Source of the DNA: an uncultured Methylophaga sp.
Lineage (GTDB): Bacteria > Pseudomonadota > Gammaproteobacteria > Nitrosococcales > Methylophagaceae
Length of the DNA: 64,000 nucleotides
Direction: 5' to 3'
Assembly (NCBI GenBank): GCA_913055695.1
Contig: CAJXKF010000008.1
Span: 1 to 64,000, forward strand
Below are positions 25,720 to 60,131 of the stretch, piece by piece. Under the pieces are notes generated by a model that did no database searches, had not been told where the DNA came from, and saw only the letters and a list, made by a program, of their open reading frames with translations. The first letter of the stretch is position 1. Each line of letters opens with the position of its first letter. A program made the translations under genes and the position numbers.

Positions 25720-25827
25720 TGTTATCCTCATCTTCAATTGAAAACGTGGATAAACCACTATAGCGAATCTGACCTGCCCCGGGTCAAGCGGGACAGGTCA
25801 GAAAAAAGCCTCGACCTTGCCTGATAC

Positions 25828-29242: not shown

Positions 29243-29385
29243 CGCGCTGTCCTCTGTGCTGATTGTTTTAATTGCAACTTAGGCTTATCGCTACATCCCG
29301 TCAATCCAGGCTTATGAAACAGCTCGTTCACTGCCGCCCTATTGAGCGATACAGCTTTGTTCTTATTGCATTTTATTCCTTTTTC

Positions 29386-29401
29386 TACTCCCTAGTGAGT
29401 A
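29386..29401. promoter_or_regulatory. NarL-type 7-2-7 site upstream of the cupin gene
   Basis: TACTCCC-TA-GTGAGTA. After exactly 37 bp comes TTTAAT (29439-29444), a -10-like hexamer, then the cupin start at 29481. AGCCTTCTTGAGAATTG directly after the site is shared almost exactly with the small-RNA A promoter. The rest of 29243-29480 shows no gene. Confidence 0.6.
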
Positions 29402-29480
29402 AGCCTTCTTGAGAATTGCCGCTGTGTTGCCGGGACTATTTAATGCGAGTGTCATTCATGACAAACAATTGAGGTAGACA

Positions 29481-29822
29481 ATGAAATACAAACAGAACGC
29501 AATTTCAGATCCACAACCATCTATGGGTGTTGACGGTGTGGATGCGACCCTCGGCGATACCTTTGTCTCCGACAGCAAAGACAAAACCCTCTGCGCCGGT
29601 TTTTTCCATCTGAACAAAACCGACAAGCCATTGGTATACACCTATGATTACGAGGAAATGAAAGTCATCGTTGATGGTGAGTTTGTCATCACAGATGAAT
29701 CCGGTTACAAGGTTCACGCTAAAGTCGGTGACGTTTTCTTCTTTGGTGACGGTGAAACCATCACATTTGAAACGCCATCCCACGGCGTCGGTTTCTTTAC
29801 CGGTCAGCGTCAGCCTATCTGA
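29481..29822 (+). CDS. EutQ-like cupin protein
   Basis: A 113-residue single-domain cupin. Residues about 40-108 form the beta-barrel (VYTYDYEEMKVIVDGEFVITDESGYKVHAKVGDVFFFGDGETITFET), like the cupin of ethanolamine-utilisation protein EutQ, but without the usual metal-binding histidines in motif 1. GAGG lies before the ATG. No ethanolamine genes are nearby; the gene is preceded by a NarL-type site of the kind found at the dmm operon, which hints at a role in methylated-amine use. Biochemical role unknown. Confidence 0.8.
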   Translation: MKYKQNAISDPQPSMGVDGVDATLGDTFVSDSKDKTLCAGFFHLNKTDKPLVYTYDYEEMKVIVDGEFVITDESGYKVHAKVGDVFFFGDGETITFETPSHGVGFFTGQRQPI

Positions 29823-29903: not shown

Positions 29904-30548
29904 TTATGACCTGGTTTTCTGCTGATGCCGCCAGACAGCAGCTTCGAGACGGCTGGTCAGGTTGAGTTTACGCAGCAGGTTTTTGATATGCACCTTGACG
30001 GTGGTATCACTGATGCCCAATCGACGGGCAATATTCTTGTTGTTCATACCTTCGGCCAGACATTCCAGGATCTCAGTTTCCCGCTCGGTCAGATTGACGT
30101 TCTCAGCGGTTTTGGATTCCGGCTCAAGCAAGGCGCGCTTCAGTACATCATTCAAGCATTCCTGTAACACCGTGACACCGCCAAAGGCTTTAAGCAGATT
30201 GGCACGCAGCTCTTCCGGTTCCATGTCTTTCAACAGATAACCATTGGCACCGGAGCGTAGAGCTTCCAGCAAGTCATCTTCAGCATCGGAGACCGTCAGC
30301 ACCACAATATGGGCCTTGGAACCAGCCTGTTTGAAACGGCGCAGGGTTTCCAGCCCATCCATGCCTTTCATATTCAAATCCAGCAGGATGATATCCGGCG
30401 CCAGCTCAGGCTCCAGTTCCAGTCCTTCAAGGCCTGACGCCGCTTCACCAACCACCTCAAAGACCGGATCATCGGAAATGATCTGTCTCACGCCTTTACG
30501 AAATAGCGGATGGTCGTCAATCAGCATGACTTTAATGGTTTCACTCAT
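29904..30548 (-). CDS. narL: NarL-like response regulator
   Basis: A 214-residue LuxR/NarL-family regulator. Receiver domain: acidic pair D11-D12, phospho-acceptor D57 (IILLDLNM), switch T84 (VVLTVSD) and K106 (YLLKDM). C-terminal GerE helix-turn-helix about 147-210 (LTERETEILECLAEGMNNKN). The recognition segment TTVKVHIKNLLRKLNLTSR matches E. coli NarL STVKVHVKHMLKKMKLKSR and keeps the Lys, Val and Lys that contact TACYYMT heptamers. It is 14 bp downstream of the sensor gene. Matching 7-2-7 sites precede several amine-related operons in this window, so the real regulon may be methylated-amine metabolism rather than nitrate respiration. Confidence 0.9.
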   Translation of the reverse strand: MSETIKVMLIDDHPLFRKGVRQIISDDPVFEVVGEAASGLEGLELEPELAPDIILLDLNMKGMDGLETLRRFKQAGSKAHIVVLTVSDAEDDLLEALRSGANGYLLKDMEPEELRANLLKAFGGVTVLQECLNDVLKRALLEPESKTAENVNLTERETEILECLAEGMNNKNIARRLGISDTTVKVHIKNLLRKLNLTSRLEAAVWRHQQKTRS

Positions 30549-30562
30549 GATTCTCTCTTCTT

Positions 30563-32416
30563 CTATTGTGCCAGTTTCGGGGTAAAGACCAGTCTGACAC
30601 GGGTCCCGCCATAGCGGCGGTTCATGACCTCTATCTCTCCCCCCAGATTATATGCCCGTTCTTTCATTATCGCCTGACCATGATGGTCATACGTCGGCGA
30701 AGCCGGTGTTAAGCCGACACCGTTATCATCAATAACCAGTTCCACTGCGCCGCTGCGTAACATGCGCATCAGTACCGAGACCGCACTGGCGCCGGAGTGA
30801 CGCACAATATTGGATAAGGCCTCACGCACCACATGCAGGATATGAAATTCCTCGTTGACCGTCAGCCGGCAGTTAATCAGGCGGTTATCGAGCGAAATGC
30901 GGATATCGGAACGCTGCGAGAACTCATCAATAGCGGCCTGTATCGCATAGCCCAGTCCACGCAGGTCCATGTGTACACGGAAGGTCGTGAGCAGTTCCCG
31001 CAGTTCACGGTAAGCATTATCCAGCCCTTCGCGCAGTTCCTTAATCGCATCGGCCTGTTTCACATCATCAAGGTGAGTCGACTGCAGACGTGCCACCTGG
31101 ATCTTCATGAAGGACAGCGACTGCGCCAGTGAATCATGCAGTTCACGGGCAATCGCCGAACGCTCTTCCAGTACCGCAAGGCGCCTGCCCTCTTCATCGT
31201 GACTCTGGTATTTGGCCACCATGGATAACAGGTTAGCGGTGATTTCCAGTACTTTAATTTCTGAATCCTCCAGCAGCCTGGAAGGCTCCATCTCAACCAG
31301 TAATACACCGATACCATTACTGGCGCTCGGGAAGGAAACCGCCAGACAAGCCACTTTCTGAGCTTCGCTGTTCTTCACCGTGAAATTCAGCATGCCTGCC
31401 GACAATAACTGGTCAAAACGCGCATTATCCATTGGGTTGGGCTTGTGATGGGAAAAGATGACCCGTTCTGAGGTGATGACCGCGGCATCATCGGTATAAA
31501 TCAGTGAGGCATTACTGAAGTTGAATACCCGCTCCAATGAATACAGCATCTTTAACAGGGTGCGCTCACTCATCACATCTTCACTGGCACTCTCAATAAA
31601 GCGCAACAGAAAATCCTGCGCCCGGATCAGGGTCTTGACCTGCTCACTGGTACGGTTAGCCCAGCTGATTTCAGCATCGGCGCCCTGGGCATGGGCAGTG
31701 ACTTCAGCAATACGGCTTTCAATCAGCGCAAACTCATCATCGCCGCTGCGACTGTCCGGGCTGTGTACCCGCTGATTGATAAAGCGCAGCATATTATCGA
31801 AACGTTCGACCAGCAGCTTGCGGGCAGAGATGGCAATCACCAGCGAGCAGCTGAAAACAAAGATCAGGCTGACCGACTGTAATAAACCGATGACTGAGCG
31901 TTTCACTTCACTGTCTCGTTGCAGGGCTTGATTCAGCTCATCATAGGATTCGGCAATGCGTTCAGCGAGTCGAAGCTGGGCGGTGAGGCGCATATTGTAA
32001 CCAGCGACCTGGTTGAAACTCGACTGCAATTGCTCAACCCGGTGCACAGCCTGTCGGATATCCGGGTTCTCCTGTTTCAGCATCCATTGCACATCCTTGT
32101 CATCCAGACGCAGGTAATTCTGCTGCATATCGCTGAATGTGCTGTTGGCTTCCTGCAGACTGACAGCATCGATAAAGGAAAGCTGACGGTGCCAGTAGAC
32201 CTTCTGTGTATTGACTTTGTCTATGGCTGCCTGGCTGGAAGGGATATAATCGAGGAGGAAAAAATTACTTGCCTGCATCAGCAGCACTGTCAGCAGCAAA
32301 CAGCCCAGTAACAATAGCAGTTTGGCATACAGGGTGCGCTGGCTGAAGCCGTTAATCAGCGCTGAGATTTGTCTGAAACGCGAAGGCATTCGCCGCGGCT
32401 TTTTCACTGTAATCAC
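30563..32416 (-). CDS. NarX-like sensor histidine kinase
   Basis: A 617-residue membrane kinase: helix 1 (about 30-55), periplasmic four-helix-type domain (about 57-172), helix 2 (about 174-198), HAMP-like linker, GAF-like domain (about 265-400), HisKA_3 box with H427 (ARELHDSLAQSLSF) and HATPase_c (HVVREALSNIVRHSGAS, DNGVGL, GQAIMKERAYNLGGEIEV). The layout is that of NarX/NarQ. The periplasmic first helix lacks the P-box pattern (INxAGxxRMQ) that senses nitrate, reading IDKVNTQKVYWHRQL instead, so the ligand may differ. A GTG start is used; it lies 15 bp from the divergent PAS gene. Confidence 0.88.
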   Translation of the reverse strand: MITVKKPRRMPSRFRQISALINGFSQRTLYAKLLLLLGCLLLTVLLMQASNFFLLDYIPSSQAAIDKVNTQKVYWHRQLSFIDAVSLQEANSTFSDMQQNYLRLDDKDVQWMLKQENPDIRQAVHRVEQLQSSFNQVAGYNMRLTAQLRLAERIAESYDELNQALQRDSEVKRSVIGLLQSVSLIFVFSCSLVIAISARKLLVERFDNMLRFINQRVHSPDSRSGDDEFALIESRIAEVTAHAQGADAEISWANRTSEQVKTLIRAQDFLLRFIESASEDVMSERTLLKMLYSLERVFNFSNASLIYTDDAAVITSERVIFSHHKPNPMDNARFDQLLSAGMLNFTVKNSEAQKVACLAVSFPSASNGIGVLLVEMEPSRLLEDSEIKVLEITANLLSMVAKYQSHDEEGRRLAVLEERSAIARELHDSLAQSLSFMKIQVARLQSTHLDDVKQADAIKELREGLDNAYRELRELLTTFRVHMDLRGLGYAIQAAIDEFSQRSDIRISLDNRLINCRLTVNEEFHILHVVREALSNIVRHSGASAVSVLMRMLRSGAVELVIDDNGVGLTPASPTYDHHGQAIMKERAYNLGGEIEVMNRRYGGTRVRLVFTPKLAQ

Positions 32417-33865: not shown

Positions 33866-34918
33866 TTATTCCGGATGCGTGCCTAACTCCAGCTCAGTGC
33901 CATCATCCATCGGTGCCAGATGATCAATCACCATCTGCCGGTAGAAGTCGAGGCCTTTGTATTCGGACAAATCCGGATGCAGATTGGTCAATACGCGGCG
34001 CAGACGTTTAGCCCAGCGGGGATAAGTCGCCAGTTCATTCACACTGGCGAGATAACCGCGCACACTGAAAGCAATCGCATTGCTGCGTGGCAGCCGGAAC
34101 AAGGCCTGCAGTTCCACCCGCAGATGCACTTTGTCACCGACATTTTCCGGCGTCACCGAGACATTGTCCGGTCCCCACAGCGGGTAGTTTTCCGGTGACG
34201 TATCCAGGCGTGGATTGACCGTCATGGTCCAGTTAAGACGACGCACCGGGCTGCCATACTGCAAATGCAGCAGGTATTTCAGCGCGCGGTCAAAAATACC
34301 CAGCTCATTCGCCTGTGGTACGGGGCCATGCCATTCCTTGAAGGACATGCCGGCATCGAAGGCCATTGACCAGTCGGCCTGGCTGGTGACGATGCCCATA
34401 TCGGCAAACAGATCATCATCGCGCTGATCCAGAATGATCCAGTCGCCCTGCACCTGACGGCCGACAAATTCAAACGGCTGCATCGGCAGGGTTGATTCAT
34501 CACCGAACACAAACTTCTGGTCAATACCCAGCGGCTTGTTGATCCAGTGCCAGTTATCACCGTCTTTAGTGAGCTTGAATTGTTCAGGATAATCAGTCGA
34601 CAGGGAGTCCATCACCAGTTCGACCATATCCCACTGTGCATCCATCATATGCGGCAACGCGATATAACGGAGTGGATCATCTTCCAGCACCAGTGCGCGA
34701 TCGGCACATTCAGCGACATAATGCTCATCGACATCGATAGCATGTTCGAATACCGAACCCGGCGCACCGCCGTTATGCTGCTCAATATTGACGCTGTACA
34801 TATACTCGTCTTCAGCAAACGGGAACGGGAAACGGCGAATCGCTTCCGCAGAGTTGCTATAGGTATAGTCGTCGCGGAAAGTTTCTTGTTTAAATGCGAG
34901 ATTCTTAGCCATATTCAT
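33866..34918 (-). CDS. dmmA: Dimethylamine monooxygenase subunit DmmA (DUF3445, haem-dependent)
   Basis: A protein of about 350 residues of the DUF3445/HODM family (haem-dependent oxidative N-demethylase). Family features include RRFPFPFAEDEYMYSVNI near the start, LGIDQKFVFGDE, FEFVGRQVQGDWIILDQ and the LFRLPRSNAIAFSVRGYL segment. In Ruegeria and Methylocella, DmmA with DmmB and DmmC oxidises dimethylamine to monomethylamine and formaldehyde using NADPH and O2. GAGGAG before ATG 34918 sets the start. It is last in dmmD-dmmC-dmmB-dmmA; published operons are usually written dmmDABC, so this order is a variant. Confidence 0.88.
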   Translation of the reverse strand: MNMAKNLAFKQETFRDDYTYSNSAEAIRRFPFPFAEDEYMYSVNIEQHNGGAPGSVFEHAIDVDEHYVAECADRALVLEDDPLRYIALPHMMDAQWDMVELVMDSLSTDYPEQFKLTKDGDNWHWINKPLGIDQKFVFGDESTLPMQPFEFVGRQVQGDWIILDQRDDDLFADMGIVTSQADWSMAFDAGMSFKEWHGPVPQANELGIFDRALKYLLHLQYGSPVRRLNWTMTVNPRLDTSPENYPLWGPDNVSVTPENVGDKVHLRVELQALFRLPRSNAIAFSVRGYLASVNELATYPRWAKRLRRVLTNLHPDLSEYKGLDFYRQMVIDHLAPMDDGTELELGTHPE

Positions 34919-34928
34919 CACTTACTCC

Positions 34929-35882
34929 TCAAAGATTGACCACCAGTTTGGAGCATTTAGCCCGTGATACACATGGCATAATGCTTCTGCCTTCGGCCTT
35001 TTCATGGTCGGACAGGTAATGGTCGTTGTGCATAATCACGCCGTCGCAGGAAACCACTTCCAGCTCACAGCGACCGCAGGCACCGCCACGGCACAGAAAC
35101 GGTGGCTCGGCACCGGCCTCTTCCATCGCTTCCAGCATGCTCATATCACCCGGCACAGTGACTTCCATCCCGCTCAGCGCCAGTTCAACGGTGAACTCAT
35201 CCCCTGACGGTGGCGCGGTAAACTCTTCACTGTGGACATGGTTATCCGGCCAGCCCAGGTTTTTCGCATGCAGATGCAACGCCTTGACCATCGGTACCGG
35301 CCCACAGATATAGACATGGGTGCCCAGAGGCTGATGACTCAACAAATCGGGGATATCCAGTCGTTCGTCTTCACTGTCGACGTAGAAGTGAACACGATCA
35401 CCGCACATCTCCTGCAACTGTTCACGAAAAGCCGCATGTTCAGGTGAGCGGTAGGCATAGTGCAGTTCATAGTCATAACCCAAGCGGTTCAGATCCGAAA
35501 TCTGTGACATGAAGGGTGTGATACCGATACCGCCTGCAATCAGAATATGCCGGCGTCCCAGCTTGGAGATCGCAAACAGATTTGTCGGGTAGGTGATTTG
35601 CAGTGTGCTGCCGGGTTTAACCTGTTCATGCATGTAAACCGAACCACCGCGCGAGTTTTCCTGTTTACGAACTGAAATATGGTAGCTGTCGGTATTGGCG
35701 GTCGAGCCCATCAATGAATAGGGATTACGGTGAATGCGACCATTGATGTCCATTGATACAACCACGTGACTGCCACCGGAAAAACGCGGCAAGGGTTCGC
35801 CGTTTTCCTGGACCAGCGTGAAGTGCTTGACCACTTCAGTCACTTGTTCCACTTCAGCCACTTTCACATTTAATACACTCAT
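34929..35882 (-). CDS. dmmB: Dimethylamine monooxygenase reductase subunit DmmB
   Basis: A 317-residue ferredoxin reductase of the phthalate-dioxygenase-reductase type: flavin domain (HRNPYSLMGS), NAD(P)-binding domain (HILIAGGIGITPFMSQI, HVYICGPVPMV) and a C-terminal 2Fe-2S domain with CRGGACGRCELEV plus a distal Cys (SIMPCVSRA). It passes electrons from NAD(P)H to the haem subunit DmmA. It overlaps dmmC by 4 bp and precedes dmmA by 10 bp. Confidence 0.88.
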   Translation of the reverse strand: MSVLNVKVAEVEQVTEVVKHFTLVQENGEPLPRFSGGSHVVVSMDINGRIHRNPYSLMGSTANTDSYHISVRKQENSRGGSVYMHEQVKPGSTLQITYPTNLFAISKLGRRHILIAGGIGITPFMSQISDLNRLGYDYELHYAYRSPEHAAFREQLQEMCGDRVHFYVDSEDERLDIPDLLSHQPLGTHVYICGPVPMVKALHLHAKNLGWPDNHVHSEEFTAPPSGDEFTVELALSGMEVTVPGDMSMLEAMEEAGAEPPFLCRGGACGRCELEVVSCDGVIMHNDHYLSDHEKAEGRSIMPCVSRAKCSKLVVNL

Positions 35883-36481
35883 GGGTAAATCTCCTCTGCT
35901 GCCGGAATATTGCCCGGTTCCTCAGCATCCACCATGACGCCCATATAAGCGCCGAGACGGCGTGAGAAATGGTCGCGAACAAACAGGTGACGACCGCAGC
36001 CACTGCATTGATGAATACTGTGATGCACATCTTTGTCGGTTGTTTTGCAGTGAACGCAGTAAACTGATCTGGCAAGGGTGCCGCTCAGCTCTTTCTCGAC
36101 ATTGCGATCCTGCACGCCATAGACTTTCAGTTCCTCGATCACTGCCCAGATAAAGGCTTCGCTGCCTGCAACATAAAACTGTGTGCCCATCAGACAATCA
36201 GGTAATTGCTCCCTAAGTGCAGCCAGCACCGCTTCGCCTGACTCACACACCTGCAGACCTTCCGGTACCAGCTTGGTAATGATGTCAGCGTATTTTTTTG
36301 TTGCCGACGTGTCGTCGGCAAACAACAACTTGATTGGCTCACGGGGACACATCTGTTGAAATAATTTCAGTACTGCAATTCCCCCCTCGCCTTCGGCGAT
36401 GACAACATGGCCGGTCGCATGCTGCTTCCAGACCAGTGAGTCATAAAGGGGTTTGCTTCTGATCCAATATCCTCTTTCCAT
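35879..36481 (-). CDS. dmmC: Dimethylamine monooxygenase subunit DmmC
   Basis: A 200-residue protein; GAGG upstream of ATG 36481 sets the start (the frame runs open to 36601). The N-terminal part resembles the NAD-binding half of a ferredoxin reductase, and the C-terminus carries two CxxC pairs (VYCVHCKTT, HQCSGCGRHLF) that look like a zinc ribbon or rubredoxin-like metal site. This shape and location fit DmmC, the third component needed for dimethylamine monooxygenase activity. Its exact role is not established. Confidence 0.8.
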   Translation of the reverse strand: MERGYWIRSKPLYDSLVWKQHATGHVVIAEGEGGIAVLKLFQQMCPREPIKLLFADDTSATKKYADIITKLVPEGLQVCESGEAVLAALREQLPDCLMGTQFYVAGSEAFIWAVIEELKVYGVQDRNVEKELSGTLARSVYCVHCKTTDKDVHHSIHQCSGCGRHLFVRDHFSRRLGAYMGVMVDAEEPGNIPAAEEIYP

Positions 36482-36542
36482 CGCTTTTTCCTCATCTTGT
36501 TGCCCCTGCCACTTCCCTGTGACATGCCAGGCAGGGTGACTA

Positions 36543-37691
36543 CTATTGTTCGGGATGAGTACGCAGACGCATCGGGTCGTAGAAAGGTGTCTTGACGACA
36601 TGGGCCTTGACCGGCGTTTCGGCTGCCACTACCACCTGAGTGCCAAGTTGCGAGAACTCGGGTTTGAGATGCACCATGGCAATCGATTTCATCAGGTAAC
36701 GGCTGAAGCTGGCACTGGTGACTACGCCGATTTCTTTACCATCTTTGATGATTTTGGCGCCTGCCGGCATCGCTTCGCTGCTCTGACAGACCAGACCGGC
36801 CTGCTTGAAGCGTTCGCGGCCTTTCAGTTTCAGCAGCGCCTCTTTACCGACGTAATCGCCTTTTTTGTTCAGATCCACACACCAGTGCATATTGACTTCC
36901 CACGGTGTGGTGTCACCTTCCGGCATATCGAATGGATAGAACAATAAAGCGGCTTCAACCCGGGTCAGATCCAGCGATTCCCAGGAACCGGCCATAATGC
37001 CGTAGGCATGGCCTTTTTCCATGATGCTGTCCCAGATATGCACTGCATCTTCACCGCTGCAATACACTTCATAACCGCGCTCACCGGAATAACCGCCACG
37101 GGCGATAATCACATCACAGCCGAACAGTTTGGTTTCAACATGTTTGAAATAGGGCAGGCGGGCCAGATCAATACTGACTTCAGGGCCGAGAATATCCACC
37201 GATTTCGGTCCCTGCAGCGACAGGATGTGCACGTCAAAATCCTGCTCGATAGTGACATCGAGGCCTTCAGACAGTCTCGCCAGATTTTGCTGGGTACTGC
37301 CGCCACCATGAGAGATACGGTAGTGATCCTTGGCATCACAAATCAGCATGATGTCGTCAACCAGAGCACCCTCTTCGTTCACTTCAGCAGCCAGACGAGA
37401 AGTCCCCGGTTCCAGTTCCGTCACATCAATTGCCACCAGTTTATCCAGCACTTTCAGCGCGGCCGGACCGGTCACATTGAGAATATTGAGGGCTGAGACA
37501 TCATAAAGTGCCGCCCGGGTTCTCACTGCAATGACTTCATCATGCGGATCGCTATGGTAAAACTGCGGGATTGGCATGCCCCAGATGGACTCATCCAGCT
37601 TGGAACCAAGCTCGCGATGACGTTCATTGAGGACTGAATTACGGGTAATTGCCGCTTCAGCGGCTTCGGCTGGTTGGGTAGAATTGCTCAT
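36543..37691 (-). CDS. dmmD: GcvT-family tetrahydrofolate-dependent protein DmmD
   Basis: A 382-residue aminomethyltransferase (GcvT) family protein with VRTRAALYDVSALNILNVTGPAAL, a folate-binding core including GYSGERGYEVYC and the C-terminal barrel. In dmm operons this protein is proposed to move the C1 unit released from dimethylamine onto tetrahydrofolate, avoiding free formaldehyde. It is first in the operon, 62 bp before dmmC, and a palindromic NarL-type site sits 82 bp upstream. Confidence 0.87.
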   Translation of the reverse strand: MSNSTQPAEAAEAAITRNSVLNERHRELGSKLDESIWGMPIPQFYHSDPHDEVIAVRTRAALYDVSALNILNVTGPAALKVLDKLVAIDVTELEPGTSRLAAEVNEEGALVDDIMLICDAKDHYRISHGGGSTQQNLARLSEGLDVTIEQDFDVHILSLQGPKSVDILGPEVSIDLARLPYFKHVETKLFGCDVIIARGGYSGERGYEVYCSGEDAVHIWDSIMEKGHAYGIMAGSWESLDLTRVEAALLFYPFDMPEGDTTPWEVNMHWCVDLNKKGDYVGKEALLKLKGRERFKQAGLVCQSSEAMPAGAKIIKDGKEIGVVTSASFSRYLMKSIAMVHLKPEFSQLGTQVVVAAETPVKAHVVKTPFYDPMRLRTHPEQ

Positions 37692-37772
37692 GACACTGGC
37701 TCCGCTTTAATAACAGGAAGTTCATAAGCAAATTAACGCAATTAAAAGGGCTTCAAAATTCTCTTGATGGCG

Positions 37773-37788
37773 TACTCCCTTGGGAGTA
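37773..37788. promoter_or_regulatory. Perfect NarL-type 7-2-7 palindrome upstream of dmmD
   Basis: TACTCCC-TT-GGGAGTA is a perfect 16-bp inverted repeat. On the minus strand GAGAATT lies 10 bp after the site (also at the cupin and permease promoters), and TAATTT begins after exactly 37 bp as a -10-like hexamer. Confidence 0.65.
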
Positions 37789-37815
37789 AAAAATTCCCTC
37801 TGATGCCAGTAAAAA

Positions 37816-39979: not shown

Positions 39980-41110
39980 TCAGGCGCTGACTCTGTCTTT
40001 TTGCGCCTCATCCCCGGGTAGCATAAAGTCATGCACCGTGAGGCCAAAGCCAGCCATCGCTGGCAGTATACGCGGCCGCGTCAGCAGCGTCATACCGGTG
40101 ACACCCAAATCTTTCAGAATTTGTGCCCCCACGCCATAGTGTTTGAGCTTCAACCTGGGCAGCTCGGTGGATTCACCGATACCGTCATCATGCATGAGAA
40201 GCAGCACGCCCGCGCCGGATTCGCAGATGGCCTGCATCGCTTCTGTCACGCTCCAGCTGTGGCCGCGTCGATCATTGTCGAGCAAATCCAGACCATTAAA
40301 TGGCGCATGTACCCGCACCAGGGTGTTGTGACTGGAGCGGATATCACCATACACCAGAGCCTGATGCTGTTCACCGCTGTGAATATCACCGTAGCGGCTG
40401 AGTGCAAACTCACCAAAAATCGTGCTCAGCTTGCGGGTATCCTGATGCACGACAATGGTTTCCTGCTGATGTCGGTAGGCGATTAAATCGGCAATCGTAC
40501 CCACTTTCAGCCCGTGCTGTTCTGCAAAACGGAGTAAATCCGGCATTCTGGCCATCGTGCCGTCATCATTCATGATCTCGCAGATAACCGAAGCCGGCTC
40601 TCTGCCAGCCAGCTGAGCCAGATCACAACCAGCTTCGGTATGGCCGGCACGTGACAACACGCCGGCCGGCTGGGCCATCAACGGAAAGATATGGCCCGGA
40701 CTGACGATATCAGCCGGGCTGGCATCGCTGGCGACCGCAGCCTGAATGGTGCGGGCACGATCGGCGGTGGAAATGCCGGTGGTCACGCCGCTTGCGGCCT
40801 CTATCGACACGGTGAAATTGGTGCCCAGCGAGGTGCCATTATGACCCACCATTAATGGCAGATTAAGCTGCCGGCAACGCGCTTCAGTCAGTGTCAGGCA
40901 TATCAGGCCGCGGCCGTGCATGGCCATGAAATTGATGGCTTCAGCATTGATGGCGTCAGCCGCCATGATCAGATCGCCTTCGTTTTCACGATCTTCATCA
41001 TCCATCAACACCACCATTTTGCCCTGGCGGATGTCCTCAATAATCTCTTCAATCGGTGAAACTGTGCGGGATGCAGCTTTGGCTCTGAATGCGACAGTGG
41101 AATAAGTCAT
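39980..41110 (-). CDS. ribB: Dihydroxybutanone-phosphate synthase RibB with degenerate RibA domain
   Basis: A 376-residue fusion. Residues to about 205 are a complete DHBP synthase: VVLMDDEDRENEGDLI, THE-type FMAMHGRGLICL, TNFTVSIEA and RAGHTEAGCDLA. It makes the four-carbon precursor of riboflavin from ribulose-5-phosphate. The C-terminal half resembles GTP cyclohydrolase II but has lost the zinc cysteines: the stretch after LVRVHAPFNG reads LDLLDNDRRGHSW where CxxGD...RCDCG is expected. It should therefore act only as RibB, with the second domain structural or regulatory. It follows folE2 by 9 bp, likely one transcript. Confidence 0.9.
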   Translation of the reverse strand: MTYSTVAFRAKAASRTVSPIEEIIEDIRQGKMVVLMDDEDRENEGDLIMAADAINAEAINFMAMHGRGLICLTLTEARCRQLNLPLMVGHNGTSLGTNFTVSIEAASGVTTGISTADRARTIQAAVASDASPADIVSPGHIFPLMAQPAGVLSRAGHTEAGCDLAQLAGREPASVICEIMNDDGTMARMPDLLRFAEQHGLKVGTIADLIAYRHQQETIVVHQDTRKLSTIFGEFALSRYGDIHSGEQHQALVYGDIRSSHNTLVRVHAPFNGLDLLDNDRRGHSWSVTEAMQAICESGAGVLLLMHDDGIGESTELPRLKLKHYGVGAQILKDLGVTGMTLLTRPRILPAMAGFGLTVHDFMLPGDEAQKDRVSA

Positions 41111-41119
41111 CTCGTCCCC

Positions 41120-41908
41120 TCACATGCGGTCAATCAATGCGTAAGCCGAATGGTTATGAATCGATTCAAAATTCTCACATTCAACCCGGAAGCCACCAAT
41201 TTGCGGTGCTTTTTCCAAAGCGCCGGCGATATCTCTGACCAGATCCTCGACAAATTTGGGATTGTCGTAGGCAAACTCGGTGACAAATTTTTCATCCGGC
41301 CGCTTGAGCAGACCATAAAGCTGACTGGATGCCTGGGCTTCAACCAGGGTAATCAGCTCGTCCAGGCTCATATTCTGGCCCATCTCGACTTCAACCGTGA
41401 CCAGTGAACGTTGATTATGCGCGCCGTACTGGGAAATCTTTTTGGAACAGGGGCAGAGACTGGTGACCGGAATTTCCGCCTTGACGGTGAGTTTATAGTC
41501 TTCACCGATTTCGGCATTCAGGGTCACATCGTAATCCATCATGCTGGTCACGCCTGAAACCGGCGCGGCTTTTTCCAGGAAAAACGGGAAACGCATCTGC
41601 ACATGACCGTTATCGGCTTCCAGCAGCTCCAGCATGGCGCGCATAAAAGCCGGCATCGTCGTTACCGAAAACACCTGTTTCGGCTGCTCCAGCAGCTCGA
41701 CAAATCGAGACATATGGGTGCCTTTGACATGATGCGGCAAACAGACAGTCATATTGAAATCAGCCACGACACGGATGGGATTGCCATCATGACTGTCAAA
41801 GAAAATGGGATAACGTAAAGATTTGATGCCTACCCGATCGATCGGTAGCTGGCGTTTATCAGGTGTGTTCTGGACATCTTCGAGGCCAGCTTTAAGAGGC
41901 AGGTTCAT
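41120..41908 (-). CDS. folE2: GTP cyclohydrolase FolE2
   Basis: A 262-residue type IB GTP cyclohydrolase: VGIKSLRYPIFF, MSRFVELLE, SLCPCSKKISQYGAHNQRS with the catalytic Cys, and the C-terminal RVECENFESIHNHSAYA. It opens tetrahydrofolate synthesis from GTP and can work without zinc, depending on the strain. AAGGA upstream of ATG 41908 sets the start. It is co-directional with ribB-like; the candidate small RNA A ends 53 bp upstream, so folE2 could be expressed by read-through from that promoter. Confidence 0.93.
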   Translation of the reverse strand: MNLPLKAGLEDVQNTPDKRQLPIDRVGIKSLRYPIFFDSHDGNPIRVVADFNMTVCLPHHVKGTHMSRFVELLEQPKQVFSVTTMPAFMRAMLELLEADNGHVQMRFPFFLEKAAPVSGVTSMMDYDVTLNAEIGEDYKLTVKAEIPVTSLCPCSKKISQYGAHNQRSLVTVEVEMGQNMSLDELITLVEAQASSQLYGLLKRPDEKFVTEFAYDNPKFVEDLVRDIAGALEKAPQIGGFRVECENFESIHNHSAYALIDRM

Positions 41909-41960: not shown

Positions 41961-42109
41961 AAAAAGGAAGGCGAACTGCTCACTGCTGTCTACAGATGCC
42001 ATTGAGAACATCATGCTGGCAGTGACAGCCCGCCTCCAACGTCCCAACGAGAGAACGGTTTAGAGGATAACCATGAAGAAGCTGAACCCCTGTCTTAAAA
42101 ATCAGCTTC
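41961..42109 (-). ncRNA. Candidate small RNA A (paralogue of B)
   Basis: Predicted minus-strand transcript of about 149 nt beginning 7 nt after the GATAAT hexamer. In order: 5' hairpin GAAGCUGA...UCAGCUUC; hairpin GGUU-AUCCUCUA-AACC with UCCUC in the loop; hairpin CGUUCUC...GGGACG; and a long terminator stem (CUGUCACUGC pairing GCAGUGAGCAG, extended by GGAGGCG/CGCCUUCC) ending in UUUUU at 41965-41961. The first three elements recur in B with altered but still pairing bases. Alternatively it is an attenuating leader of folE2-ribB, whose start is 53 bp on. Confidence 0.6.
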
Positions 42110-42115
42110 AGTTTA

Positions 42116-42174
42116 ATTATCACGGCGGCTTCAGCCTGCAACAATTCCAAAGAAGGCTTACTACCTAGGTGTTA
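42116..42174 (-). promoter_or_regulatory. NarL-type site and promoter of small RNA A
   Basis: The 7-2-7 element is TACTACC-TA-GGTGTTA on the plus strand (42159-42174). On the minus strand 37 bp follow it before GATAAT (42121-42116). Confidence 0.58.
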
Positions 42175-42185
42175 GAAATAAGGTC

Positions 42186-42332
42186 TCAATGCGGTTCAGA
42201 CGAACCGAAATCGTCGCTGTCTTGTGCGGTCAGCATGCCGCCGCTATAGCTGCCGGTCATCCAGCCATTGATAGTCAGATGAGTCAGTACCAATGCCATG
42301 AACTTGAAAGACTTGTTGATTGCAATCGACAT
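42186..42332 (-). CDS. Small hypothetical protein, 48 aa
   Basis: A short frame beginning MSIAINKSFKFMALVLTHLT, with AAGAAGGG about 6 bases before the ATG and a complete stop. A hydrophobic stretch (FMALVLTHLTINGWM) could insert in the membrane; the tail is acidic (DSDDFGSSEPH). It sits between the two small RNA units. No family recognised; the ribosome-binding site is the main support. The remainder of 42333-42440 shows nothing clear. Confidence 0.4.
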   Translation of the reverse strand: MSIAINKSFKFMALVLTHLTINGWMTGSYSGGMLTAQDSDDFGSSEPH

Positions 42333-42440
42333 TTGAAACCCTTCTTGTCAGGGTCCGGCCGGCCCGGCTCATCAGTTCAGCAATGAGTGCCAGGCAGATG
42401 AATCGACAGCTAGCCAGGTCATTTCATCAGAGACAGCCAT

Positions 42441-42570
42441 AAAAAAAGGGAGCTGTCGAAACCGGGCAATAAACGCTTGCATCCGACTCCGGCAACTCCC
42501 TAACATTCCAATCGGAACGGGTTAGAGGATAACCATGAAGAAGCTGAAACATTCGCTGAAAACCAGCTTC
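42441..42570 (-). ncRNA. Candidate small RNA B (paralogue of A)
   Basis: Predicted minus-strand transcript of about 130 nt. Elements: 5' hairpin with GAAGCUG pairing CAGCUUC; UUCAU; hairpin GGUUA-UCCUC-UAACC; hairpin CGUUCC-GAUU-GGAAUG; terminator with GGGAG pairing CUCCC followed by seven U. The arrangement is collinear with A, 461 bp away. UCCUC in a loop is the complement of Shine-Dalgarno sequences, typical of small RNAs that block translation. Short plus-strand frames starting ATGAAGAAGCTGAA lie antisense to both copies and look spurious. Confidence 0.62.
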
Positions 42571-42576
42571 AGTTTC

Positions 42577-42635
42577 ATTATCTCCTTTGTCCCTGATAGT
42601 TACCATTGTGAAGAGGTATTACTACCAAGGTCATA
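42577..42635 (-). promoter_or_regulatory. NarL-type site and promoter of small RNA B
   Basis: The 7-2-7 element reads TACTACC-AA-GGTCATA on the plus strand (42620-42635). Exactly 37 bp separate it from GATAAT (42582-42577) on the minus strand, the same as in copy A. Confidence 0.58.
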
Positions 42636-42666
42636 GCTGCTCTTCTCCTTTCCGCTTGGCGTTTTT

Positions 42667-48594: not shown

Positions 48595-48900
48595 TTAATT
48601 GACTTTTGCATCGTTTTTGGCTGCCCGGTTCTCATCCAGATGCTTGATATCCAATCCATAGATAAAGGCCTTATCTTCCGCGTAATGGCGAGTCATTGAC
48701 CCGACAGAAGCGGTGTTGAAAAGCACCAGAAAGCCACTTGAAATAATGAGTACCCATTGAATGATGGGATCATCGACGATGTTTAAGATACTAATGAGGA
48801 CGAAGCCCACAGCCAGCCAGATCAGAATGATGTCCGACCAGGCCATGATACAGTCCCGTACATACATGTTATGTATGCGTTTTTTTAAATTATTATTCAT
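48595..48900 (-). CDS. Membrane protein, 101 aa, transporter-cluster
   Basis: A protein with two helices (IILIWLAVGFVLISILNIV and WVLIISSGFLVLFNTASVG) and a charged tail (KAFIYGLDIKHLDENRAAKN). GAGAGG lies before the ATG. It opens the unit of three small membrane proteins, a permease and usp. Position after mgsC, separated by a long terminator hairpin, suggests co-regulation with or partial read-through from the NMG operon. Confidence 0.78.
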   Translation of the reverse strand: MNNNLKKRIHNMYVRDCIMAWSDIILIWLAVGFVLISILNIVDDPIIQWVLIISSGFLVLFNTASVGSMTRHYAEDKAFIYGLDIKHLDENRAAKNDAKVN

Positions 48901-48967
48901 GGTTAATTTCCTCTCTCTTGCTTAATTGATTGAACTACACGGATTCCTCCTCAGGATTGAAAATGCA

Positions 48968-49085: not shown

Positions 49086-50420
49086 TTAGAAGGTCTGTTG
49101 CTGACCGGGAATCCAGCTGGTGCCGGCCAGTGGTACACGGGCCATCGCAGCAGATTCAACAGTCAGGGCAACCAGATCTTCCGGTTCCAGGTTACGCAGG
49201 TCGTTCTTACCACAGGCACGGGCCAGGGTTTGCGCTTCCAGGGTTAAAACACGCAGGTAGTTCGCCAGACGACGGCCACCTTCAATCGGGTCAAAGCGTT
49301 TCATCAGCTCAGGATCCTGGGTTGAAATACCGGCTGGATCTCGACCTTCATGCCAGTCATCATAAGAACCGGCTGTCGATCCCAGTTTCTGGTACTCGTC
49401 TTCCCATTTCGGATCGTTGTCACCCAGTGCGACCATCGCAGCGGTACCAATCGCGACTGCATCCGCACCCAGCGCCATACACTTGGCGACGTCGGCACCG
49501 TTACGGATACCACCGGATACAATCAGCTGTACCTTGCGGTGCATGCCCATTTCCTGCAGTGCCTGTACGGCTTGCGGGATGGCGGCCATGGTCGGAATAC
49601 CGACGTGTTCGATAAACACGTCCTGAGTTGCTGCGGTACCGCCCTGCATACCGTCGACGACGATAACGTCTGCGCCGGCTTTGACCGCCAGTTTCACATC
49701 ATAGTAAGTGCGGGTGGCACCAACCTTGATGTAGATAGGCACCTGCCAGTCGGTGATTTCACGCAGTTCCTTGATTTTGATTTCAAGATCATCAGGACCG
49801 GTCCAGTCAGGGTGACGACAGGCAGAGCGCTGATCCACGCCTTTCGGCAAAGTACGCATCTTGGCCACACGATCGGTGATCTTCTGACCCAGCAGCATAC
49901 CGCCACCGCCCGGTTTGGCACCCTGACCCAGAACCACTTCGATGGCATCAGCTTTACGCAGATCATCAGGGTTCATGCCGTAACGTGATGGCAGATACTG
50001 ATAGACCAGCTTGGTCGACTGACCACGCTCTTCCGGGGTCATACCACCGTCACCGGTGGTGGTTGAGGTACCGACAGCAGAGGCACCACGACCCAGCGCT
50101 TCTTTGGCATAGGCAGACAGCGCGCCGAAGCTCATACCGGCAATCGTAATCGGGATTTCCAGCTCGATAGGTTTCTTGGCAAAACGGTTACCGAGGGTCA
50201 CCGTGGTATTGCATTTTTCACGATAGCCTTCCAGCGGGTAACGCGACATACTCGCGCCCAGGAACAGCAGATCGTCAAAGTGCGGCAGCTTGCGCTTGGC
50301 ACCGGCGCCGCGGATATCGTAAATACCGGTATCGGCAGCGCGACGGATTTCAGCCATCGTCAAACGGTCAAATGTCGCTGACTCGCGCGGTACGGTCATG
50401 TATTTTCTTTTTTCAGTCAT
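49086..50420 (-). CDS. mgsC: N-methylglutamate synthase subunit C (FMN glutamate-synthase-like)
   Basis: A 444-residue protein matching the FMN-binding domain of glutamate synthase: GMSFGALSAYAKEALGRGASAVGTSTTTGDGGM, GAKPGGGGMLLGQKI, IKVGATRTYYDVKLAVKAGADVIVVDGMQGGTAATQ and LIVSGGIRNGADVAKCMALGADAVAIG. Cysteines CMALGA and CGKN lie near the C-terminus. With MgsA and MgsB it forms N-methylglutamate synthase. Last gene of mgdABCD-gmaS-mgsABC. Confidence 0.93.
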   Translation of the reverse strand: MTEKRKYMTVPRESATFDRLTMAEIRRAADTGIYDIRGAGAKRKLPHFDDLLFLGASMSRYPLEGYREKCNTTVTLGNRFAKKPIELEIPITIAGMSFGALSAYAKEALGRGASAVGTSTTTGDGGMTPEERGQSTKLVYQYLPSRYGMNPDDLRKADAIEVVLGQGAKPGGGGMLLGQKITDRVAKMRTLPKGVDQRSACRHPDWTGPDDLEIKIKELREITDWQVPIYIKVGATRTYYDVKLAVKAGADVIVVDGMQGGTAATQDVFIEHVGIPTMAAIPQAVQALQEMGMHRKVQLIVSGGIRNGADVAKCMALGADAVAIGTAAMVALGDNDPKWEDEYQKLGSTAGSYDDWHEGRDPAGISTQDPELMKRFDPIEGGRRLANYLRVLTLEAQTLARACGKNDLRNLEPEDLVALTVESAAMARVPLAGTSWIPGQQQTF

Positions 50421-50445
50421 TTCTAATTCCTCGCAATATCAGCAA

Positions 50446-51186
50446 TTAATAAGAGCCAGCGTTATCAACTTTGAAGTTGTAAAGCTGTCTGGCAGAGCCG
50501 TAGCGTTTGAAATCTCTCGGGTCCTGATCGGTCACACCGGCGCGTTCAAACAGTTCGGTCAGTTCCTCGATGTGTTCGGCCCGCATTTCTTTTTCAATGC
50601 AGTCCGCACCCAGAGATTTCACGCTGCCTTTGACATAGATGTGGGCTTCATAGAGTGAGTCGCCCAGCGCCTCACCGGCGTCACCGCACACGGCCAGCAC
50701 ACCGGCCTGTCCCATAAAGCAGCTCATATGTCCGACGCTGCCTTTAACCAGGATGTCGACACCTTTCATGGAAATACCACAGCGGGAACCGGCATCACCT
50801 TCAATCACCAGCAGACCACCATGTGCAGTCGCACCGGCTGCTGATGAAGCATTGCCTTTAACACGAACCAGACCTGACATCATGTTTTCCGCGACGCCCT
50901 GACCGGTGTGGCCGTGAATGGTGATTTCGGCTTCCTGGTTCATGCCGGCGCAGTAGTAACCGGCCGGACCGTGGATATCAATTTTCAGTTTCTGATTAAC
51001 ACCCACCGCCAGGTTATGGTGGCCTTTCGGGTTAAGCACATCCCATTTTTCGATGGTCATTTCTTTGTGTTGATCGTGCAGTGCCTGGTTCAGGTCACGC
51101 ACCGTCTGTACCGCCAGGTCAACGGTACCCACTCCGTTGATGGTTTCGAATGCAGCGGTTTGTTCTGCTAAGTTGTTTGTACTCAT
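50446..51186 (-). CDS. mgsB: N-methylglutamate synthase subunit B (GXGXG domain)
   Basis: A 246-residue protein that is a stand-alone version of the glutamate synthase C-terminal right-handed beta helix, with regularly spaced glycine repeats (GPAGYYCAGMNQEAEITIHGHTGQGVAENM, GLLVIEGDAGSRCGISMKGVDILVKGSVGHMSCFMGQAGVLAVCGDAGE). It is a structural subunit holding the MgsA and MgsC domains together. 25 bp separate it from mgsC. Confidence 0.92.
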   Translation of the reverse strand: MSTNNLAEQTAAFETINGVGTVDLAVQTVRDLNQALHDQHKEMTIEKWDVLNPKGHHNLAVGVNQKLKIDIHGPAGYYCAGMNQEAEITIHGHTGQGVAENMMSGLVRVKGNASSAAGATAHGGLLVIEGDAGSRCGISMKGVDILVKGSVGHMSCFMGQAGVLAVCGDAGEALGDSLYEAHIYVKGSVKSLGADCIEKEMRAEHIEELTELFERAGVTDQDPRDFKRYGSARQLYNFKVDNAGSY

Positions 51187-51209
51187 TATCTTCTCCTAAT
51201 CACCAAGTC

Positions 51210-52112
51210 TTAGTTGCCATTACGTTCCCAGACATAGATGCGCGCCGGTTCCGGTTCCCAGACCTTGGCGTCTTCGATACCGGGCAGCGTGGTCAGCGCC
51301 TGATATTCGGAGGCCATCGCCACATAATCATCGGTTTCAGCAATGACGGCGGGTTTACAGGCAATCGGATCACGCACCACGGCAAAACCGTCTTTGGTGC
51401 CAATCGTTAAGGTGTAAAAACCGTCCAGTGTTTTCAGCGCGTTCTCGAGTGCTTCGTTCAGAGAATCACCCTGCTCCAGACGGTAGGTCAGATAACCTGC
51501 CGCGACTTCGGTATCGTTTTCGGTATTGAATTCAATACCTTCACGTTGCAGCTCTTTACGCAGACGGTTGTGGTTGGAAAAAGAACCGTTATGTACCAGG
51601 CACAGATCCAGACCGGTTGAGAAAGGATGGCTGCCTGCCATGGTCACAGCAGATTCTGTTGCCATACGGGTATGACCAACGATATGGCTGCCTTTCATAT
51701 TACCGAGGTTGAACATATCGACGATACGCTCGGGCAGACCGACTTCTTTGAGGATCTCGATAGATTTACCCGAGCTCATGATCAGCACGTCGTCATGGTT
51801 TTCTTCCAGGTACTCTTCGACTTTTTCCGCATCAACGCCGACTTTGAACACAGCGACTTTGCTGTTCTGGAACCAGTTCACTTTGGTATCCAGGGCTTTC
51901 TCGATGTCTTTGGCCAGAGCTGCCCAGTCGTAGTTTTCGTCTTCATGACGCAAGGTCAGTTTGATGCCGTCTTCGACCGCATCACCGTAGACCGCAAAAC
52001 CGGCACTGTCGGGACCGCGTTCGGTCATCGCAATCAGCATCGGTGCGAACAGTTTGCCCAGTTCGCTCTCGTATTTATCGTTTTTCAGATAAAGACCAAC
52101 GATTCCACACAT
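51210..52112 (-). CDS. mgsA: N-methylglutamate synthase subunit A (class II amidotransferase)
   Basis: A 300-residue glutaminase-like domain with the nucleophile Cys2 after the initiator (MCGIVGLYLKND), then MTERGPDSAGFAVYG, RMATESAVTMAGSHPFSTGLDLCLVHNGSFSNHN and ENDTEVAAGYL. In NMG synthase it is thought to release methylamine from gamma-glutamylmethylamide for transfer to the FMN subunit. Follows gmaS by 36 bp. Confidence 0.92.
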   Translation of the reverse strand: MCGIVGLYLKNDKYESELGKLFAPMLIAMTERGPDSAGFAVYGDAVEDGIKLTLRHEDENYDWAALAKDIEKALDTKVNWFQNSKVAVFKVGVDAEKVEEYLEENHDDVLIMSSGKSIEILKEVGLPERIVDMFNLGNMKGSHIVGHTRMATESAVTMAGSHPFSTGLDLCLVHNGSFSNHNRLRKELQREGIEFNTENDTEVAAGYLTYRLEQGDSLNEALENALKTLDGFYTLTIGTKDGFAVVRDPIACKPAVIAETDDYVAMASEYQALTTLPGIEDAKVWEPEPARIYVWERNGN

Positions 52113-52148
52113 AAGATTTCTCCTAAAAAACGCCTCTCAGGCGGAGTA

Positions 52149-53519
52149 TTAATAAAACTCAACGTAGCGGTTGATTTCCCAATCGGAGACATGACGCATG
52201 TACTCCACCCATTCCATGTGTTTCAGTTCCAGAAACTCTTTGGCAAGTCCTTCACCGAGTGCTCCTTTGACGACATCGTCTTTCTCCAGTGCCAGCAAGG
52301 CTTCATGGAGGTTTTGCGGCAGGATGCCGATACCGTTTTGTTCCAGCTCAGCCGGGCTCATGTCATACAGGTTGCTGTCATGACCTTTACCCGGTTCCAA
52401 TTCACGTTCCACACCGTCAAGACCGGCAGCAATAGCTGCAGCCGCAGTCAGGTATGGGTTACAGGTACCATCCGGCAGACGCAGCTCAATACGGCCGTAG
52501 GGAATACGAACCATGGTTGAACGGTTGTTGTTGCCGTAGGAAATATAGGCAGGTGCCCAGGTTGCACCGGACAGTGAACGACCCACGACCAGGCGTTTGT
52601 ATGAATTCACGGTCGGGGCCGCAATCGCAGTCAGTGCAGGAGCATGCTCCAGGATGCCGGCCATGAAGTGGTAGGCCATCTTGGACAAACCAAGACCATT
52701 GGGATCGCTGTCATCATGGAACAGACTCTTCTCACCATCGCCGATAGACATATGCATGTGCATGCCATTACCCGGACGGTTGCTGAACGGTTTCGACATG
52801 AATGAGCAAATCATGCCCATTTCATTGGCGATTTCACTGGCACCCATCTTGAACAGGATGTAATCATCCGCGCTCTTCAGGCAGTCAGCATAGGTATAGT
52901 TGATTTCGAACTGACCGTTAGCATCTTCATGGTCAATCTGGTAAATATCCAGACCGACCTGAATCAGGGCTTCGGTCATTTTTTCCAGGTATTCGCCCTG
53001 ACGCTTGATGCCTTTATAGTCATAACAAGGCTTTTGCAGGGTGTCGGTCACATCACAGGGTGACAGTTGACCGGTGACCGCATCTTTTTTCAGCAGGGAG
53101 AATTCCGGCTCCAGACCGGTGTAGAGGATCCAGCCTTTTTCTTCCAGACGTTTGATCTGCTTTTTCAGCACGACGCGGCTGTCATGGTCGTATGGCTGAC
53201 CATTGACATGACCGTCACAGATAATGCGGGCATAGCCTGGCTGCCAGGGCAGCAGCGTCAGTGTGCTTAAATCACCGACTGCCATATAGTCGGGGCCATT
53301 CGGTGCAATACCCATACCCCAGATAGCGCCCCCGGCAAAGCCGGCACCGTTGCTGGTAATGTCTTCCAGATGTGACGCGGGTACTGATTTAACCTTGGCG
53401 ACACCGTGAATATCGACAAACTGAGCCAACACGTATTTCACGTCGTTGTCTTTCAGAAACTTCTTGGCCTGCTCGATTTGGGCTGACTCCAGAAGTGAGT
53501 CGTTGTGTTCGTATTTCAT
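52149..53519 (-). CDS. gmaS: Gamma-glutamylmethylamide synthetase
   Basis: A 456-residue glutamine-synthetase-fold enzyme. GS motifs are visible: [29 protein letters not shown] (metal Glu), [46 protein letters not shown] and [15 protein letters not shown]. It joins methylamine to glutamate with ATP. It is placed between mgdD and mgsA, the standard setting of gmaS; ordinary GlnA would be expected near ntrBC instead. Confidence 0.93.
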
Positions 53520-53557
53520 GAGCTCTTTCCTTCTGTTTATAAAAACAGCGTTGGTGA

Positions 53558-54232
53558 TTAAGTAAGCGAGTAATAAAAGTTGAAACCGACCGGACCGCCG
53601 CCCTGCTCTTCAATGATGCCAAGCAGGGTTTTCCACAAATAAGGGCCGAAGGTTCCGTCACACCAGATGCGATAAACAGATTGGCCGTTAAGCGTCTGCT
53701 TCAGCAGCGTTGCCGATACACCGGCGATGACAGTCATGACCAGACGATTTTCTTCCAAGGTGGCGCCGTCCAAATCGATGGCACACACTTCAGAGAACAA
53801 GGCTGGGGTCAGCTCACCGCTGACAATAAAAGCCGCGTCATTGCGCATCACTTTATGCACACCGCCTTGATTCACGGCGGTGTCGTTGAGCGTACGGGTG
53901 AGATCGTTTTCCGGCCGGTCTTCCAGCAGAAACTCGGTATTACCCAGACGCATCACCAGACTGCCGTTATCCTGCGGCGTCCAGCTGTTAGTGGTTTCAG
54001 GCAGCTTGATTCCTGCTGTCTGCAACCAGTTGGCAGCCTGCGGCCCTTTCACACCAAAACGGTTGAGATTACTGACATCGCAGATACTCAATGTCTTGTT
54101 GCGTGAGGCTTCCACGTCGGCTGCATCAAAGCTCAAAGCAGTCTCCATGCCATTGACCTCCCCGCTGACCGGTTTCCTTAATGCATGAGCAAAGGCCACC
54201 GGACTCATTAATACGGCGTCTTGCATGTTCAC
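53558..54232 (-). CDS. mgdD: N-methylglutamate dehydrogenase subunit D (SoxG-like)
   Basis: A 224-residue protein resembling the gamma subunit of heterotetrameric sarcosine oxidase, itself GcvT-like ([38 protein letters not shown]-type C-terminal pattern, [17 protein letters not shown]). It overlaps mgdC by 4 bp. It completes the four-subunit dehydrogenase. Confidence 0.88.
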
Positions 54233-57401: not shown

Positions 57402-57414
57402 CGCTTAGCTCTCA

Positions 57415-59957: not shown

Positions 59958-60039
59958 GCTTACCCCCTAACCACTCAGCAACCATTCATGAGTTTGATTT
60001 TAGTCAGGCTTAACAGGGGGTTAAATACCGATGAAAGTG

Positions 60040-60055
60040 TACTCCCAAAGGGGTA
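60040..60055. promoter_or_regulatory. NarL-type 7-2-7 site between globin and BLUF-EAL genes
   Basis: TACTCCC-AA-AGGGGTA. Toward the globin, TAAAAT begins after exactly 37 bp. Toward the BLUF-EAL gene a TATGTT begins after 40 bp. A single site could serve both promoters. Confidence 0.6.
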
Positions 60056-60131
60056 CACAACCCCGCTATGACGGGTTTACACAAGACCATGAAGCTATGT
60101 TAATGTCATACAAAAACAAGTGGAATTGGCT

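Follow-up and report, generated by a model that had tools for sequence, protein, structure and literature searches.

A conserved, terminator-ended RNA element upstream of folE2-ribBA in a candidate NarL-type methylated-amine regulon of Methylophaga

In this work, we describe two diverged copies of one element, units B and A, which lie on the minus strand between the TorF gene and folE2 in a 64,000-nucleotide stretch of Methylophaga DNA (hereafter, the window). The sequence supports A and B as tandem paralogous, terminator-ended, apparently non-coding RNAs, each with an activator-type promoter, and together with related genomes it indicates that they represent a real conserved RNA element that has no Rfam match and lies inside a newly outlined amine regulon. 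The element can best be viewed as a terminator-ended folE2 leader, from which a trans-acting RNA is probably released, with cis attenuation as a close rival.

Units A and B in the window

The window includes a methylated-amine island, so called on the basis of family matches and gene order. Besides N-methylglutamate pathway-kind genes and a haem-dependent N-demethylase operon (Table 1), this island contains ribBA, an additional folE2, a permease of the TMAO type, and a gene judged SMR-like by eye.

In both units, a 7-2-7 site is followed after exactly 37 bp by GATAAT, and then by a 5' hairpin (P1), a common UUCUUCAUGGUUAUCCUCUAA stretch, a third hairpin (P3), and a terminator; 134 of 221 aligned positions are identical between A and B. 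The tandem collinear arrangement of paralogous units on the minus strand, the spacing of 37 bp, and the intrinsic terminators had been proposed in an initial annotation of this DNA, and each holds for both units, the strong terminal hairpins (dG of -28.0 kcal/mol in B and -37.7 kcal/mol in A) being followed by T-rich sequence. A simple motif scan of the stretch flagged neither terminator and no promoter. The proposed GGUUA-UCCUC-UAACC hairpin is exact in B; in A, however, the predicted stem is AUGGUU/AACCGU, and UCCUC lies in an 8-nt loop. When up to three mismatches are allowed, TTCTTCATGGTTATCCTCTAA has exactly two matches in the whole source genome, one per unit and both mismatch-free, and its reversed control has none. 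The units are beyond chance, since related units occur in 14 of the 24 genomes of the genus. A small ORF lies between B and A; a similar short ORF is seen by eye upstream of the G003 unit, and nine other islands gave no convincing match.

Table 1. Features of the window discussed in the text, with positions counted from its first nucleotide.
Feature	Positions	Strand	Evidence
Operator upstream of EutQ-like cupin gene (29481-29822)	29384..29421	+	Matrix score 31.8; site not in matrix
NarL-family response regulator, candidate activator	29904..30548	-	NCBIfam NarL 271.9 bits (cut-off 250)
NarX/NarQ-like sensor kinase	30563..32416	-	208-210 bits, far below NarX/NarQ cut-offs (553-578)
Haem-dependent N-demethylase operon	33866-37691		Family match, gene order
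Operator upstream of dimethylamine-type demethylase operon (36543-37691 onwards)	37753..37790	-	Matrix score 16.5; site not in matrix
ribBA, gene after folE2	39980..41110	-	525.7 bits (cut-off 513)
folE2 paralog of the island; ATG 52 nt past T tract of A	41123..41908	-	NCBIfam FolE2 287.9 bits (cut-off 215)
Terminator of A	41961..42037	-	dG -37.7
RNA A, about 149 nt, folE2 leader; start predicted from -10	41961..42109	-	Sequence, fold; model E 2.8e-15, A itself in model
UCCUC of A	42063..42067	-	Sequence
-10 of unit A, GATAAT, 37 bp past 7-2-7	42116..42121	-	Sequence
Operator of unit A (TAACACC-TA-GGTAGTA + AGCCTTCTTTGGAATTGTTG)	42139..42176	-	Matrix score 58.0, A in matrix; near-identical sites in genus
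Small ORF, 48 aa, between B and A	42186..42332	-	No Pfam family at E <= 0.1
Terminator of B	42441..42501	-	dG -28.0 + T7
RNA B, about 130 nt (P1, UCCUC stretch, P3, terminator); start predicted from -10	42441..42570	-	Sequence, fold; model E 1.7e-12, B itself in model
UCCUC of B	42525..42529	-	Sequence
-10 of unit B, GATAAT, 37 bp past 7-2-7	42577..42582	-	Sequence
Operator of unit B (7-2-7 TATGACC-TT-GGTAGTA + extension)	42600..42637	-	Matrix score 32.1; B among the 15 sites building matrix
h101 (101 aa), candidate target in trans; by eye, has hydrophobic stretches; start site GAGAGGAAATTAACCATGAA at 48896-48915	48598..48900	-	Complementarity
N-methylglutamate pathway-kind genes (glutamate-synthase-like, type III glutamine-synthetase, sarcosine-oxidase-like)	49086-58656		Family match, gene order
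Weaker operator upstream of truncated globin (59535-59957)	60020..60057	-	Matrix score 10.6; -10 TAAAAT at 37 bp

Distribution and position of the element

Related units were recovered by BLAST comparison of the A-B stretch over 58 genomes, without folE2 as a guide, and the set was completed by inspecting the DNA upstream of folE2, which gave 17 copies in 14 of the 24 Methylophaga genomes. A covariance model search across the genus, proposed as a check by the initial annotation, was performed genome-wide in the 24 genomes with a model built from the 17 copies, scoring the 150 best candidates per genome; it recovered the same 17, all already in the model, at E <= 5e-7 and added none, the next match having an E-value of 0.097. 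With stricter filters, the model found no copies in 39 other genomes of the order (14 of 63 genomes positive overall). A collection-wide scan with the P3 pattern gave seven matches: five in Methylophaga, one matching the same-genus genome G001, and one in a cyanobacterial MAG, which we take as chance. A viral scan gave four matches. For the window, Rfam at the gathering score reports two tRNAs only and no family for A or B, and at E <= 10 it reports five irrelevant weak matches (E 1.1-8.8), in agreement with the earlier statement that no described family fits the units. The copies were divided by eye, rather than from a tree, into clades I (that of the window), II, and III.

Every copy found (17/17) precedes the extra folE2 in a methylated-amine island, 14 directly and three as upstream duplicates; that is, the element has a conserved position in the leader of one gene. 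In the window and nine further islands, the upstream neighbour gene varies between species, and folE2-ribBA continues to adjoin the RNA unit. The distance from the end of the T tract to the folE2 ATG is 41-58 nt in 14/14 genomes, and between the terminator and this ATG no promoter-like 12-mer scores above 9 of 12 matches in any of them. Because no promoter is visible after the terminator, A can be regarded as the folE2-ribBA leader and, if terminated, as an RNA of about 149 nt; for the same reason, transcripts that reach folE2 very probably pass the terminator. The initial annotation missed that each unit is the 5' leader of folE2-ribBA or its duplicate and that the promoter is that of a methylated-amine regulon.

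The folE2 paralog is present in 15 of the 24 genomes, two of these being fragments at contig ends. In the fifteenth, G022 (locus L040), inspection by eye indicates that the RNA has been largely lost, terminator included, and that the operator and folE2 are kept. The distance from the operator start to the ATG is about 215-277 nt at folE2 genes with the RNA, 140 nt in G022, and mostly 78-104 nt at tmd, dmmD, and the cupin gene. G022 also shows neither h101 (see below) nor a close ortholog of the regulator encoded in the island. In copy 2 of G002 (L036), which is next to folE2, the operator and the UCCUC loop are lost, P3 and the terminator are retained, and a TTGACA-type promoter can be discerned by eye.

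Structure and conservation of the RNA

The P1 pairs and the terminator are mostly retained in all three clades, terminator hairpins being found in 17/17 copies with energies of -18.7 to -37.7 kcal/mol. A hairpin with an intact UCCUC loop is present in the predicted folds of five of the eight clade I copies, and two more (G005 copy 1 and G002 copy 2) have the hairpin with changed loops. The UCCUC stretch itself is conserved in clades I and II. Its predicted unpaired probability ranges from 0.92 to 1.00 in clade I (six copies, UCCUC intact) and from 0.36 to 0.87 in clade II; with the register of G016 corrected, the four UCCUC-bearing copies of clade III give 0.22, 0.23, 0.25, and 0.90. By these predictions, it is clearly accessible in clade I and variable in the others, and an open UCCUC loop is typical of clade I alone among the three clades.

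Between clades, identity is 0.63 for P3 and 0.49 from the P1 3' arm to UCCUC; the -35/-10 spacer reaches 0.29 and the gap between terminator and SD 0.32. Eleven of the 17 copies entered this comparison (ten in the case of the -35/-10 spacer), and cutting the segments at conserved motifs gives the blocks an advantage. Since the conserved blocks exceed the spacers, the RNA is more than a terminator. The initial annotation had taken the pairing maintained between A and B as covariation, a view that is not supported: the P1 arms of A and B are identical, P3 differs by an indel, and among the 17 copies a two-sided change occurs in one of 11 tested pairs, which is equalled in 374 of 500 shuffles. 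On the 17-copy core, RNAalifold predicts almost no structure (-0.23 kcal/mol).

A promoter class shared with methylated-amine genes

With an operator matrix built from 15 unit operators, the window yields three additional sites, located at the EutQ-like cupin gene, the N-demethylase operon, and the truncated globin gene; in 10 shuffled windows used as a control, a single score exceeded 8 (8.5). Nine further islands have sites before a gene that we take, from its sequence, to be trimethylamine dehydrogenase (tmd), before dmmD, cupin, and folE2, and sometimes before globin and permeases. The result is a genus-wide promoter class in which a site of the TACTCCC-NN-GGGAGTA type is followed by exactly 37 bp to the -10. 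At this spacing the -10 matches TATAAT at a mean of 4.19 of 6 positions, compared with 1.24-2.60 at 20 other spacings, over 42 sites that do not amount to 42 independent cases because many are orthologous. These comprise 40 of the 48 matrix sites and two further sites; the eight left out scored 11.8-19.4, one (in G012) lying before a TMAO-type permease and the others before no recognised regulon gene.

The class thus has the NarL-type hallmark, a 7-2-7 site at a fixed distance from the -10. Since the operator with its fixed spacing also precedes genes for trimethylamine and dimethylamine breakdown, the RNAs appear to belong to a NarL-type amine regulon, and we infer that the island NarL-family protein binds the 7-2-7 sites. 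An ortholog of this regulator (at least 70% identity) is present in 12 of the 24 genomes, 11 of which have the RNA. No close ortholog was found in three RNA-bearing genomes out of the 14, namely G001, G003 (incomplete), and G023, which is complete and has both RNA and operator. A single literature query on Methylophaga, trimethylamine, and response regulators found no description of the regulon.

A candidate target in trans

The initial annotation had suggested that the UCCUC loop blocks ribosome-binding sites. This proposal gains a candidate target, h101, in clades I and II, and loses generality, the open UCCUC loop not being general in the genus. The start site of h101 lies about 6 kb from the units, and h101 is the first of three adjacent genes of the island (h101, h136, and a permease). 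The ranking covered island genes only. Of the 29 compared in four or more species, h101 shows the strongest combined complementarity (z -8.0; +0.5 with the reversed RNA) and h136 comes second (z -6.8; control -2.5); over all genes, the controls range from -3.9 to +2.0. When a dinucleotide shuffle and the whole core were used, for six of the ten species holding both RNA and h101, h101 ranked 3/32 in G000, 1/27 in G015, 2/29 in G002, 7/22 in G017, 1/24 in G014, and 1/25 in G008, and h136 ranked 14, 9, 1, 8, 4, and 3, respectively; both z-scores and ranks overstate the case because related species are not independent.

A complementary core, UUCAUGGUU(A)(U), of 9-11 bp is found in all seven clade I and II species with both RNA and h101. 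In G000, the RNA UUCAUGGUUA-UCCUCU faces AGAGGA-AAT-TAACCATGAA, forming by eye 16 pairs with one 3-nt bulge. In the source genome, TAACCATGAA has seven matches: two in the complement of the RNAs, one at h101, and four elsewhere, where the ATG opens just 3, 6, 16, or 50 codons; in raw duplex energy with RNA A, three of these four beat h101 (-31.2 to -36.8 vs -25.0). Contiguous complementarity to h101 is lost in all three clade III species (best 7 bp, shuffle p 0.28-0.43), and the single-species p in clade I is only 0.02-0.19. Four of the 14 RNA genomes (G005, G012, G016, and G023) have no h101. The 89%-complete genome G006 has h101 with the same complementary start and no RNA was found in it; the h101 start motif is therefore independent of the RNA. 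The pattern GAGA-N0-10-AACCATGAA is present in 21 of 24 genomes, including RNA-free ones, and has two other places in the source genome, one of them a plausible gene start. On this complementarity, h101 can be considered a good candidate target for anti-Shine-Dalgarno pairing in trans.

Two other genes, p186 and the truncated globin gene, outscore h101 in G000. The start site of p186 (window 25198-25758), GAGGATAACAATGAAATG, resembles the RNA complement; in G005, it reads GAGGAGAAACATGAAG, without the core. In G000, good pairing is seen between the globin start, GGTTAGGGGG, and the CCUCUAACC segment of RNA B; the z of the globin gene is clearly negative in just two of five species. Two other ways of finding targets were rejected. 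Near-perfect 18-nt complements, beyond the two RNAs, comprised two sites with three mismatches, one being the start of a 126-aa protein, and an unfiltered ranking of duplexes at 58 start sites of the window was uninformative (-38.4 at best, -31.2 for the reversed control).

Discussion

The mechanism that we put first, tentatively and with slightly less than even confidence, is a leader with a NarL-type amine promoter that is mostly terminated and releases an sRNA acting in trans on h101. Each unit would comprise a NarL-type methylated-amine promoter, a structured RNA, and an intrinsic terminator, A being placed in the 5' leader of folE2-ribBA and B being its tandem duplicate further upstream. 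Most initiations would stop at the terminator and yield an sRNA of about 130-150 nt, and the remaining transcripts would read through and supply folE2-ribBA. The freed RNA would most likely act in trans, its conserved UUCAUGGUUAUCCUC stretch pairing in the cell over the h101 start codon and ribosome-binding site and lowering h101 translation while the amine regulon is on. In addition to the counter-evidence on h101 given above, UCCUC is mostly paired in three of the five clade III copies (0.22-0.25), and all copies found adjoin folE2, an arrangement for which action in trans alone has no need; both points speak against this mechanism.

The location of the copies, to which the model search added none, favours instead a cis transcription attenuator of folE2-ribBA (possibly a riboswitch or protein-responsive leader) with no trans role, which is quite possible, although we lean against it. 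The UCCUC/UAAC strand and the 5' arm of the terminator would form an antiterminator, and the hairpin around UCCUC would withhold this strand. The constant adjacency of folE2-ribBA in the ten islands compared, the short gap with no promoter-like 12-mer, the state of G022, and the longer operator-to-ATG distance where the RNA is present all argue in the same direction. The antiterminator helix also beats shuffled sequences in clade I (sum 134 vs a mean of 102.4, 0/1000 as high, relatedness being uncontrolled), but it does not exceed chance in clade II (443/1000), where UCCUC is conserved without antiterminator pairing, or in clade III (172/1000 with G016 in a shifted register; p 0.78 for G016 in the corrected register), so that a mutually exclusive antiterminator conserved across clades was not found. 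Moreover, cognate helices in clade I barely exceed non-cognate ones (16.8 vs 15.0), a partition-function test on all 17 copies gave 0.632, where shuffles averaged 0.524 and reached at most 0.685, and Rfam contains no riboswitch match. It is unlikely that both roles are combined, with one conserved strand acting as an anti-Shine-Dalgarno seed in trans and as an antiterminator metering folE2-ribBA in cis, driven by a NarL-type amine regulator; if this were true, one RNA switch would set both cofactor supply and the expression of the h101 group.

Less likely again is passive down-tuning, in which the terminator just dampens folE2-ribBA expression from an inducible promoter and the hairpins before it do nothing: the presence of terminator hairpins in every copy and the fact that G022 manages without the element are consistent with it, but conservation of the sequence blocks that precede the terminator clearly exceeds that of the spacers. 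We consider a conserved short peptide, encoded on either strand, very improbable. Clade I and II RNAs have AUG GUU AUC CUC (exceptions being G005 copy 1, with CUG for CUC, and G002 copy 2), and most of them have GAGG-N6-ATG AAG AAG on the opposite strand; however, the five clade III copies are without both motifs, the sense product is MVIL* in six clade I copies and continues differently in others, and the antisense products differ in sequence and length. Coding on either strand was rejected since frames and peptides are not conserved, and the non-coding reading of the initial annotation, for which coding signal in the short antisense frames was the counter-evidence to look for, stands.

Compared with known systems, the terminator-ended leader that we favour resembles Neisseria NgncR_162/163, also named NmsR and RcoF, in that there are two adjacent paralogous sRNAs. 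According to passages of the published description, the Neisseria RNAs have three stem-loops and block the ribosome-binding sites of targets via the SL2 loop or the linker (PMC9973317). The likeness noted here is in arrangement, and the open loop is not general in Methylophaga; unlike the Neisseria RNAs, each Methylophaga unit is headed by an activator-type promoter, and the units form a biosynthetic-gene leader. Riboswitches of folate genes, such as THF-II (folE), are likewise leader RNAs before a folE-type gene, as is A, but no such Rfam match appears even at E <= 10, and the units are tandem copies each with a promoter. The promoters resemble those of NarL/NarP, whose 7-2-7 heptamer is TACYYMT, in the type of their sites and in a response regulator above the NCBIfam NarL cut-off, whereas the genes behind the sites are mostly those of methylated-amine use and the sensor falls far short of the NarX/NarQ cut-offs (Table 1). 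Searches on methylamine or N-methylglutamate riboswitches and on folE2 riboswitches or leader RNAs gave nothing relevant among the matches listed, and the A/B RNA is not described in the passages available from the Methylophaga small RNA literature (e.g. PMC11526790).

The RNA element appears confined to one genus among the genomes searched. The regulon would link the breakdown of trimethylamine and dimethylamine with the supply of folate and flavin, and element and regulon together may offer direct ways to test how methylated amines are sensed and allocated by a marine methylamine consumer.
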